Source of the DNA: Blastocatellia bacterium
Lineage (GTDB): Bacteria; Acidobacteriota; Blastocatellia; HR10; J050
Length of the DNA stretch: 44,256 bases
Assembly: GCA_026985075.1 (NCBI GenBank)
Contig: JALSQX010000046.1
Location: forward strand, 1-44,256
Direction of reading: 5' to 3'
Part shown: positions 15,016 through 18,841 of the stretch, piece by piece
Position numbering within the stretch: position 1 is the stretch's first letter
Layout: each line of letters begins with the position of its first letter
The notes under the pieces: model-generated
Told to the model about the DNA's origin: nothing
Seen by the model: the letters and a program-made list of their open reading frames with translations, nothing else
Database searches by the model: none
Translations under genes and position numbers: made by a program

Positions 15016-17925
15016 ATGAAAACATATCGAAGAACTCTCACCCCCATCGTACTTTTCATCCTCATGACCACCGGTTTTGGCCTCGGACAACCGGGCCGAC
15101 CGGAAAAACGGCCATTCAAGCTGGATCGACTGACCGAGCTCAGCGGGACGGGTGACCAGGGGCGACCGATGGAGGCGCGCCTTGGGCCAGTCCAATTCCT
15201 CCGCCGACTGACGCCCCGGATCAATGGGCTCACCGTCGAACAGCGAACGACGCTGGACGAGTTGAAGCAACTCAGTCCCGACATGCGCCTGGCGCTGGAT
15301 GATCGTTCGGGCACGCCATTCTTCATGATGGGTCGCTGGAAGGAGACTCCACGGACCACCTCCAGCCATTTCCCCTTGACCGCCACCGCCGCCGCTCAAC
15401 TCGCTTCCGGTTCGTCGGTCCACCTGGCCATCGCCGAACGCTTCCTCGACCGGTACAAAGAGTTGCTGAGATTGGATGACCCCGTCCAGGAATTGCGACT
15501 GAAAGGTTATCGCGTGGATGAGTTGGGATTGAAGCACCTCAAGTTCGAGCAAATCTATCGAGGCGTCCCCGTATGGGCGAGCGAACTGATCGTTCATCTG
15601 GACGCCCACGATGCCGTCTACGCGCTCAATGGCCGTTTCGAACCGACGCCTCGACAGATCACCAGCGTTGAGGCTGAGGTCACGGCCGATCGCGCCATTG
15701 ACATGGCGGTCGGCGATCTCTCTTCCCGAACGCCCATTCTCTCGCTTCCTGCGCCCCTGGCGCAGCCACTCCGGTATCACGGTCCGACGGCGAAGAAGGT
15801 GATCTTTCCCATGCGCCGCACGGGCGAGCCACGACTGGCCTGGATGGTGAATATCCGACCGAATCTCATCGAGAACTGGTATTATTTCATCGACGCGCGG
15901 TCGGGCGAACTCTTATTCAAATATAATGCCACGCCCGCCCAAGGGAGACCAGCGACCGGGCGAGGGACCGATTTGAACGGTCAGCAACGCGAGTTGAACG
16001 TCTACCAGCTCAATGGGACGTTCTTCATGATCGATGTGACGCGCCCCATTTTTGATGCTCAACGCTCCCAACTCCCCGATGATCCCGTGGGCGCGTTGTG
16101 GACCATTGATGCTCGAGGTCACGATCTGGAGCGCGGCACGCAACTGTTCCAGGTGACCTCCCCCGATGGCACCTTCGCTGATCCTTCCTCCGTCTCCGCT
16201 CATTTCAATGTGGCCGTCGTCTTCGAGTACTACTTCAATACGCACGGTCGACGGGGCATCGACGATCAGGGGAGTAGCATCATCTCGGTCATTCATGTGA
16301 CGGACGACAACCAACCGATGGACAATGCGTTCTGGAACGGAGCGGCGATGGCCTACGGCGATGGAAATGTCGCCTTCAAACCGCTGGCCGGAGGTCTGGA
16401 CGTTGCCGCCCACGAGATGACCCATGGGGTGACGCAGTATACGGCGAACCTCGTCTATCTCAGTCAGCCGGGCGCGTTGAATGAATCCATGTCCGACGTC
16501 TTCGCCGTGATGGTCGATCGCGACGATCTCAAAATTGGCGAAGATGTCGTCAAACGCGATTTCTTCCCCACCGGAGCGATGCGCGATCTGGAGAACCCCA
16601 ATCAGGGATTGCGGCGGGGTGATCCCGGCTGGCAGCCGGCACATATGAACGAATTCGTCAATCTCCCCGAAACGCCCGAGGGTGATAATGGTGGGGTCCA
16701 CGTCAACAGTGGTATCCCCAATCGCGCCGCCGCGCTCATCATCAAGGCCATCGGGCGGGAGAAGACCGAGCGGATCTACTATCGGGCGTTGACCACCTAT
16801 CTCACCTCCAGAGCTCAGTTCTCCGATGCCCGCATCGCCATCGCTCAAGCGGCGCGCGATCTGTTCGGCGACCAGAGTGCTGAAGTCGATGCCGTCAATC
16901 AGGCGTTCGATGCCGTGGGCATCACCGATGAGGCGACGCCGCCCCCACCGCCACCGCCCACGGCGACGGGGAGGGATTTCATCGCCTATGTGCGGCCCGA
17001 CTACACCATCGGGCTCATCACGCCGGATGGCTCAATGAACATCGCTACTGGCTCGTCTCAGGTCCGACACGACCCGAGTGGAGCCGACATTGCCAAGCTC
17101 TCGGTTCCTCGCGATGGAAAAACCATCTGGTTCACGGCCATCGATGGACAGGTTCACTTCATCGATATCTCCAATCTGAATAGCATGATGGAATTCTTCA
17201 TCCAAGGCGGTATCCGACAACAAGGCGATATCATGAACTTCACCGTCCATCCGGAGACGACGTTCTCGGCGGCGACCCAGTCCATTTCTGGAGCCCTGGC
17301 CATTACCATTGGGTCGTTCGATCAACCAGATCCCAATATGTACTTCGTCGATCTGCCTCCCACTCAGGTTATTCAGGTCCCCTTGCGCATCCCAACCACC
17401 GGACAGGGCGTCGAGAGTAACACCATCGCTTTCACCGACGTCATCGATTGGTTCGCCGACGGTTCGACCATCATCTACGATGCGTTCAATGTCGTCCAAC
17501 AAGCTGGTGGCGGAGCGATCACCTACTGGACATTCAATCTCCTTCGGGTAGACGTGGGCGACAGTCTCCCCGCTCTACCGCCGCAACCGGAAGGCATCTC
17601 GGTGGGTAACCCTCAGTTCGGATCGGTGACCATCACGCTGGTCGCGTACAACGAAGTCGATGACCAAACCGGCGTGATCCGACTCAAGGCCATCGACTAT
17701 AATCAATCGCAGATCTTCACGCTCGTCGATCCCACGCAACACGGCTTCGGGGCCTGGCGGCCCACGTTCTCTCCCGATGACCGCAAGATGGCCTTCGTGG
17801 ACGTGAGAAACCTGAATACGGCACCGCTGCTCGGGCAACTCCTGGTGGCTGATCTCACGACCGGTCAGGTGATGGCGCTTCCGGTCCAAGCGGGCAATCC
17901 CGAATGGTTCGCCAAGTCGAGATGA
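15016..17925 (+). CDS. Secreted M4 (thermolysin-family) metalloprotease with C-terminal beta-propeller-like region
   Basis: About 969 residues. A signal peptide (residues 1-25) is followed by an FTP/PepSY propeptide (about 60-310). The M4 catalytic domain comes next: zinc ligands H466 and H470 with catalytic E467 in HEMTHGV, third ligand E490 in GALNESMSD, and the transition-state histidine H562 in VHVNSGIPNRAA. After a linker with a run of seven prolines (near 641-650), the last 320 residues form repeated beta segments such as PDGSMNIATGSSQVRHDPSGAD and FGAWRPTFSPDDRKMAFVD, resembling a TolB-like propeller. It should self-process and act outside the cell. The ATG at 15016 has GAGGAG 9 bp upstream. 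Confidence 0.93.
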   Translation: MKTYRRTLTPIVLFILMTTGFGLGQPGRPEKRPFKLDRLTELSGTGDQGRPMEARLGPVQFLRRLTPRINGLTVEQRTTLDELKQLSPDMRLALDDRSGTPFFMMGRWKETPRTTSSHFPLTATAAAQLASGSSVHLAIAERFLDRYKELLRLDDPVQELRLKGYRVDELGLKHLKFEQIYRGVPVWASELIVHLDAHDAVYALNGRFEPTPRQITSVEAEVTADRAIDMAVGDLSSRTPILSLPAPLAQPLRYHGPTAKKVIFPMRRTGEPRLAWMVNIRPNLIENWYYFIDARSGELLFKYNATPAQGRPATGRGTDLNGQQRELNVYQLNGTFFMIDVTRPIFDAQRSQLPDDPVGALWTIDARGHDLERGTQLFQVTSPDGTFADPSSVSAHFNVAVVFEYYFNTHGRRGIDDQGSSIISVIHVTDDNQPMDNAFWNGAAMAYGDGNVAFKPLAGGLDVAAHEMTHGVTQYTANLVYLSQPGALNESMSDVFAVMVDRDDLKIGEDVVKRDFFPTGAMRDLENPNQGLRRGDPGWQPAHMNEFVNLPETPEGDNGGVHVNSGIPNRAAALIIKAIGREKTERIYYRALTTYLTSRAQFSDARIAIAQAARDLFGDQSAEVDAVNQAFDAVGITDEATPPPPPPPTATGRDFIAYVRPDYTIGLITPDGSMNIATGSSQVRHDPSGADIAKLSVPRDGKTIWFTAIDGQVHFIDISNLNSMMEFFIQGGIRQQGDIMNFTVHPETTFSAATQSISGALAITIGSFDQPDPNMYFVDLPPTQVIQVPLRIPTTGQGVESNTIAFTDVIDWFADGSTIIYDAFNVVQQAGGGAITYWTFNLLRVDVGDSLPALPPQPEGISVGNPQFGSVTITLVAYNEVDDQTGVIRLKAIDYNQSQIFTLVDPTQHGFGAWRPTFSPDDRKMAFVDVRNLNTAPLLGQLLVADLTTGQVMALPVQAGNPEWFAKSR

Positions 17926-17974: not shown

Positions 17975-18841
17975 TCACTCCGGTTTCACCGGTCCCAGAG
18001 GAGACGGCTTTTGCTGAGCGGTGGCATTATACCGGAAGATGATGCGGCCATCTGTGGCATCGACGAAATAATACCAGTGATCTCTCACGTTTGGCCTGAT
18101 GCTCACCTGCCAGGCGAGGTGAGGGCGTCCGGTGTCCCGCTCGTGAAAGATGACCTTCTCTGCACTCGGCCCTCGATACTTCATGGCCTCGTTGACGTGT
18201 GGTGGGATGGGCTGGAACTGAACCGTCCGCTTCAAGTCATCGACGGCAATCTGGATCGCTCGCTCGGCAGGGATGCGCGCCTTCGCCGACCTCAACTGGC
18301 GGGGCGTTGGCTCATAGCGACCGTTGATCGCGTAGATCTCGCCCGCCCGGTTGATGTGAACGATGAGGCTCGATGCCCACACCGGGATGCCCTTGTAGTA
18401 CTGGTCGAATGTGAGATGTTTCATGCCCAGCGAATCGACGGTGTGCTCCCGAAGGATGAATTCCCGTCCGGGATGACGAATTTTGAACAGCCGCTTATAC
18501 CTCTTCAAAAACTGCTCGGCAGCCCCAACATCCCTGATGGCCGCCTCCGAGAGCTCCAACTGGCGAGCGCGACGCCGATTCGCCGCCCCCGGCCGAACGT
18601 TCCGCACCACACCCAATCGACCGCGCAGGAAGGTGGGCGTCCAGTTTCTCTCGTTCCAGCGAATGGTCACGTCACCTCCACTGCTTCGCTTCAGCCTCTC
18701 CAAGGCGACTAACTGTTCGCGAGAGGGACCTGGCAGGTCCTCTCTTCTCTGCGTCCCCACACCACGTCTGGCGGTCAGAGGAGAAAGTAAAAGAATCACG
18801 CTCATCGCCATCGAAGTGAACCAGTATCGCATGGCTTTCAT
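17975..18841 (-). CDS. Stand-alone FTP/PepSY propeptide protein, paralogue of the neighbouring M4 protease pro-region
   Basis: About 288 residues with a signal peptide (WFTSMAMSVILLLSPLTA). The remainder aligns along its length with residues 60-310 of the adjacent M4 protease: shared blocks include KHLTFDQYYKGIPVWAS, YAINGRYEPTPRQ, AIQIAVDDL, KVIFHERDTGRPHLAW and HWYYFVDA. The protein stops at FRYNATAQQ, exactly where the protease continues into its catalytic domain, and no HEXXH remains. M4 propeptides act as foldases and inhibitors in cis, so this one could work in trans on the convergent gene's product; this is inference. It could also be a truncated protease remnant, but the reading frame and signal peptide are intact. 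An upstream start at 18907 is open but adds nothing conserved. Confidence 0.8.
   Translation of the reverse strand: MKAMRYWFTSMAMSVILLLSPLTARRGVGTQRREDLPGPSREQLVALERLKRSSGGDVTIRWNERNWTPTFLRGRLGVVRNVRPGAANRRRARQLELSEAAIRDVGAAEQFLKRYKRLFKIRHPGREFILREHTVDSLGMKHLTFDQYYKGIPVWASSLIVHINRAGEIYAINGRYEPTPRQLRSAKARIPAERAIQIAVDDLKRTVQFQPIPPHVNEAMKYRGPSAEKVIFHERDTGRPHLAWQVSIRPNVRDHWYYFVDATDGRIIFRYNATAQQKPSPLGPVKPE

Follow-up and report, generated by a model that had tools for sequence, protein, structure and literature searches.

The window, by which we mean the whole 44,256-nucleotide stretch of Blastocatellia DNA (contig JALSQX010000046.1) analysed here, holds two convergent genes whose stop codons lie 50 bp apart (Table 1). 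One encodes an M4 protease precursor that carries HEMTH and NESMSD motifs. The other, on the minus strand, has an intact open frame for a free-standing protein resembling the pro-region of an M4 precursor. The pair does not form an operon, and because the genes are convergent, their arrangement does not imply co-expression. The hairpin between them had folding energies of -33.0 kcal/mol on one strand and -26.7 kcal/mol on the other, a stability reached by none of 200 shuffles, and is probably a shared terminator of both genes; a similar hairpin lies 3' of the free-standing gene in the sister species J050 (L006 6875-6903). Scores from promoter and terminator scans were not above those of shuffled sequence, and an Rfam search returned no matches. 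Flanking genes were named EF-P, NUDIX, SbcC and SbcD from a reading of their sequences rather than by family search. The protease ends in an extension of about 330 residues (16936-17925), to which PD40 (WD40-like) matched weakly, at a score under the cut-off.

Table 1. Features of the free-standing gene and the adjoining protease gene, in window coordinates
Feature	Position	Strand	Remarks
M4 (thermolysin-type) protease precursor	15016..17925	+	Signal, pro-region, catalytic domain, C-terminal extension; PF01447, PF02868, PF07504
Protease pro-region, attached relative of the free protein	15097..15951	+	Borders approximate
FTP within the protease pro-region	15490-15639	+	
Zinc-binding HEMTH motif of the protease	16411..16425	+	
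G+C-rich hairpin between the convergent stop codons	17927..17965	.	No T run
Free-standing propeptide gene	17975..18832	-	285 aa, stop codon within coordinates; start common to sister species J050
Free C-terminal tail AQQKPSPLGPVKPE	17978..18019	-	13/14 residues the same in J050
PepSY domain	18038..18277	-	PF03413; best-modelled part
FTP (fungalysin/thermolysin propeptide) motif	18314..18463	-	PF07504
Likely signal peptide MRYWFTSMAMSVILLLSPLTA	18770..18832	-	Cut after LTA by sequence reading

The initial annotation described an exported protein of 288 residues, beginning at an in-frame ATG at 18841. The intact frame and signal-like start are confirmed, but the length is not: the aligned J050 position has no start codon, while an ATG at 18832 is found in both the window and J050, and we therefore take the latter as the shared start of a 285-residue protein. 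From this start the protein reads as a signal-like segment, an N-terminal part, FTP, PepSY, a short proline-rich tail and the stop codon. The signal peptide was called by sequence inspection and hydropathy, which peaks at about 2.2 (12-residue window) in the window and in J050; the segment contains no cysteine. Pfam placed FTP at residues 127-176 (56.7 bits against a cut-off of 21) and PepSY at residues 189-268 (26.5 bits against 24), both in the 288-residue numbering, and found no peptidase domain. The C-terminal tail is absent from the attached copies and differs from that of J050 by five synonymous codons and one non-synonymous codon out of 14. As initially annotated, the protein stops before the catalytic domain. 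With a stop codon right after the pro-region-like part, it has no covalent link to an M4 catalytic domain, and so we regard it as a relative of propeptides rather than a propeptide.

Within its own genome, and apart from itself, the free protein was most similar to the neighbouring protease's pro-region, with which its residues 36-279 aligned at 42% identity (E 6e-63), a match far beyond chance. The other three own-genome matches were M36 enzymes, as are the other three FTP proteins of this genome. A single M4 catalytic domain was found in the window's genome, and a single one in that of J050 (genome G001). The match had been said to run nearly end to end along the pro-region; it covers most of it, but the free protein lacks about 40 residues that the neighbour's pro-region has in its N-terminal part. 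To speak of the same propeptide, as was also done, is too strong for a diverged paralogue with 40% identity over the alignment. When the two free and the three attached sequences were aligned, free and attached copies shared 40-41% identity, and the attached pro-region of G006, a genome from another family of the same order, shared 46-48% with the other two attached ones. Where the three attached M4 pro-regions were invariant, the free protein kept the residue at 23 of 29 positions within FTP, at 36 of 49 within the PepSY part and at 15 of 39 within the diverged N-terminal part. In Pfam the free copy even outscored its neighbour's attached one (46.0 bits for FTP and 17.8 for PepSY in the latter).

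Phylogenetic analysis of the pro-regions (30 rows) placed the free pair, from the window and J050, as sister to the three attached M4 pro-regions with support of 99/96, and these five formed one group apart from the M36 pro-regions of the same genome (98/97). The grouping of the three attached pro-regions persisted with one row added (99/96). Both within the genome and on the tree, then, the closest attached relative of the free protein is an M4 pro-region. A recent duplication of the neighbour's pro-region was rejected, as forcing the two to pair cost 13.5 log-likelihood units (p-AU 0.011). Judged from these comparisons, the free gene reads as a diverged paralogue of the pro-region and not as a fresh truncation, and it probably either predates the split of the two families or was transferred.

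The sister species J050 keeps the free gene at 89% identity with the same flanking genes; the gene sequence on the G001 contig is identical to J050 record RFHM01000465.1 ("Acidobacteria bacterium isolate J050"). Its flanks match the window on both sides, with the protease and five window frames on one contig and the free gene and six further frames on another. The protease contig stops about 30 codons short of the protease stop, and the other starts, within a hairpin, at most 42 bases from the last codon of the small gene. Since the two genes sit at the ends of different contigs, their adjacency in J050 is deduced from the flanking genes. The contig end within the intergenic hairpin suggests that the assembly broke at this strong stem.

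Comparison of this one species pair (Nei-Gojobori, 500 bootstraps) gave a dN/dS of 0.188 (0.121-0.299) for the free gene and 0.143 (0.085-0.228) without its signal peptide. By part, values were 0.63 for the signal (wide limits), 0.27 for the N-terminal part, 0.10 for FTP and 0.065 (0.020-0.136) from residue 176 onward. The attached pro-region gave 0.135, the catalytic domain 0.079 and the C-terminal extension 0.049, the lowest value within the protease; the SbcC-like neighbouring gene gave 0.244. The dN/dS check that the initial annotation had proposed thus revealed purifying selection on the small gene, and its view of a working gene rather than debris is borne out by this ratio (0.19, bootstrap 0.12-0.30) and by retention in the only other genus genome examined. 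Debris is rejected on dN/dS.

Within the order, the free gene occurred in two of ten searched genomes, which are both of the two genus genomes. Since only two species carry it, its co-occurrence with the protease counts as one event. G006 has a protease 64% identical over 910 residues and no free gene; 12 kb read at its protease locus held none of the window's flanking genes. The free gene may have been lost there, or the G006 protease may have arrived by transfer. A protease without the small gene argues against an obligate partnership. Conservation of the pair in relatives, another check proposed at the outset, therefore holds in both genus genomes but not in G006. Neither the free gene nor this protease was present in the other seven order genomes. 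Short M4 frames of 387 and 381 aa were seen in G002 (G002:C133:49811-50311) and G003 (G003:C301:4652-5158), too short for an FTP-type pro-region.

Across the phylum, the free protein was matched in 29 of 396 genomes at 1e-8 and FTP in 147 of 396 at 1e-5. Eight frames under 400 aa stood among the FTP matches listed, namely the window's own and seven others, of which six continue past the end of their contig and the seventh is interrupted. Outside the window's genus, the matches listed from these 396 genomes thus included no complete free-standing counterpart. The interrupted case (L070, G081:C291:1649-2041 and on) breaks between FTP and the rest, with protease-like sequence continuing in another frame, and represents a frameshift or an assembly error. 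Four of 72,556 plasmid records matched, all annotated as M4 peptidases and none covering 80%. On viral contigs, none of 75 candidate stretches was confirmed as a relative of the free protein, and the protease had no relatives there. A genome contig collection gave three relatives among 19 stretches, with J050 alone close. Maintained by purifying selection, the free gene is real and rare.

We also compared a structural model of the free protein with known folds. The AlphaFold2 model, built on three sequences, had a mean pLDDT of 57.8 and was good only at about residues 190-270, the PepSY part. Foldseek returned four matches at E <= 0.001, in the order 4k90_B (fungalysin), 5boi (YpeB), 3nqz_A and 3nqy_A (MCP-02). 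VIA-align gave 4k90_B a Z of 8.5 (87 residues, 3.6 A), and the other three Z values of at most 8, a range in which middling Z is common. These matches agree with the sequence result and add little to it. Predicted isoelectric points were 10.9 for the mature free protein, 4.6 for the catalytic domain and 9.7 for the attached pro-region. A strongly basic free protein would be compatible with binding to an acidic catalytic domain, although the attached pro-region is also basic.

M4 propeptides serve as chaperones as well as inhibitors. In precursors the module binds the catalytic domain, as is established for M4 propeptides (PMC4282423). Given that binding, a separate exported copy beside the only M4 gene would most simply bind in trans. 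We therefore favour, with moderate confidence, the view that this free-standing M4-type propeptide is exported and controls the neighbouring M4 enzyme in trans, probably by restraining it or by helping it to fold. The role in trans, as inhibitor or chaperone, that the initial annotation argued for would be consistent with the homology, the likely export, the locus, the single M4 enzyme of the genome and the charge. Because the protease already comes with its own pro-region, we prefer inhibitor to foldase: the likely best reading is an inhibitor of the propeptide type that works in trans, perhaps with a foldase role as well, for which we infer export, binding, inhibition and the direction of the effect. 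The free protein would be exported by the Sec route and fold as an FTP-PepSY module, which would dock on the catalytic domain at the place of the enzyme's own pro-region, with the C-terminal tail laid at or near the cleft. So docked, it would act as a competitive brake on the mature enzyme; folding help would be possible but secondary. The PepSY motif of propeptides has been cited as an intramolecular inhibitor (PMC4282423).

Alternatively, the protein could be a PepSY-type regulator that is exported and has switched to a different partner, which might be one of the M36 enzymes, a foreign protease or something other than a protease. Free-standing PepSY proteins are described as acting in this way, YpeB on SleB and YycI on a two-component system (PMC4282423); YpeB is second in the Foldseek list, the genome has three M36 enzymes with FTP, and an old duplication leaves time for a change of partner. 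We nevertheless consider this unlikely, as the gene stayed beside the only M4 gene and its product clusters with M4 pro-regions, apart from those of the M36 enzymes in its own genome. Less likely still is a protein that serves mainly in folding or rescuing the M4 catalytic domain rather than in inhibiting it. Such a foldase would suit the known chaperone activity of M4 propeptides and the strong conservation of the FTP-PepSY part, but the protease has a complete pro-region under similar constraint, and G006 manages without the small gene. That the gene is a functionless, decaying relic of another M4 gene, in inverted orientation, whose catalytic domain has been lost would account for the tail-to-tail arrangement and for the 50 bp before the neighbour's stop codon, too little for a catalytic domain, but is highly improbable given the upper bootstrap limit of dN/dS, the freedom of both species from stops and frameshifts, the conserved tail and an origin preceding the split from the G006 protease.

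A trans-acting inhibitor of the neighbouring protease would, on our best reading, represent a known strategy built here from an M4 propeptide, analogous to SUB1-ProM of Plasmodium. The latter, a stand-alone protein resembling a propeptide, is encoded next to subtilase genes and inhibits its protease with a Ki(app) of 5.67 nM (PMC6993865). As with SUB1-ProM and I9-type subtilisin propeptides, a conserved gene lies by protease genes and its exported product is propeptide-like only; SUB1-ProM differs in its serine protease (S8), its other propeptide, its occurrence in a eukaryote and its measured inhibition (PMC6993865). The I29 cathepsin-L propeptide-like proteins likewise stand alone and act on a protease in trans, but derive from a cysteine protease propeptide, and we claim no homology with them (PMC6010012). 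Like inhibitors of the I9 and I29 kind, the window's protein is encoded by a gene of its own that comprises an entire propeptide module and a predicted export signal, and that gene is maintained by selection. Emfourin (M4in), encoded beside protealysin, is a neighbour-encoded inhibitor that binds the active-site region of an M4 protease (PMC9505478). Its gene also adjoins that of its M4 protease; compared by description, it belongs to a separate inhibitor family and the same operon, whereas the window's protein is a relative of the protease's propeptide from a convergent gene (PMC9505478).

PepSY proteins without enzymatic domains have been proposed to regulate proteases, and some act on other partners (PMC4282423). 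The Group 2 proteins (Yeats et al. 2004, via PMC4282423), such as SspA and YpeB, share PepSY, the lack of a catalytic domain and the proposed role in protease regulation with the window's protein, for which export is likewise predicted. The group is characterised by a signal peptide and one or more PepSY domains with no further domain, but the window's protein has FTP and an N-terminal part as well, and so keeps the M4 layout of N-terminal part, FTP and PepSY beside an M4 protease. The propeptides of MCP-02 (3nqy, 3nqz) and fungalysin Mep (4k90), the best structural matches, are likewise chains separate from the enzyme after processing, but according to the entry titles that of MCP-02 comes from the enzyme's own precursor. 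The same applies to that of Mep. Among papers listed on stand-alone or trans-acting propeptides, M4 inhibitors and FTP/PepSY, in a library with few subscription journals, we found no M4-derived stand-alone inhibitor, and none came from the Acidobacteria literature listed there. With an M4 pro-region layout, one M4 enzyme and genes side by side, the locus offers a clean place to test the PepSY-regulator proposal. If our reading is true, the protein would be a natural protein inhibitor of an M4 enzyme.

More tentatively, and at somewhat less than even likelihood, the gene may represent an inhibitor family in its own right, which would have separated from an M4 protease precursor earlier than the divergence of the order's families and stayed beside its enzyme. 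It would extend to M4 propeptides the stand-alone strategy that subtilases and cathepsins are known to use, in a form that arises repeatedly, since an unrelated FTP protein stands free in G451. The suggested second instance, G451, comes from another phylum, that of the Arenibacter locus, in which 34 of 118 sampled genomes matched at 1e-6 and one of the 48 listed frames was shorter than 400 aa. This frame (L078, G451:C1:590010-590966, minus strand) encodes 264 residues with a signal-like start, FTP and a proline-rich tail of its own. Pfam called no PepSY at 0.001, and frames of at least 200 aa within 14 kb contained no HExxH. On the tree the G451 protein forms a separate branch, unrelated to the window's gene. 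Its gene adjoins a frame that reads like a secreted PD40/TolB-type protein.
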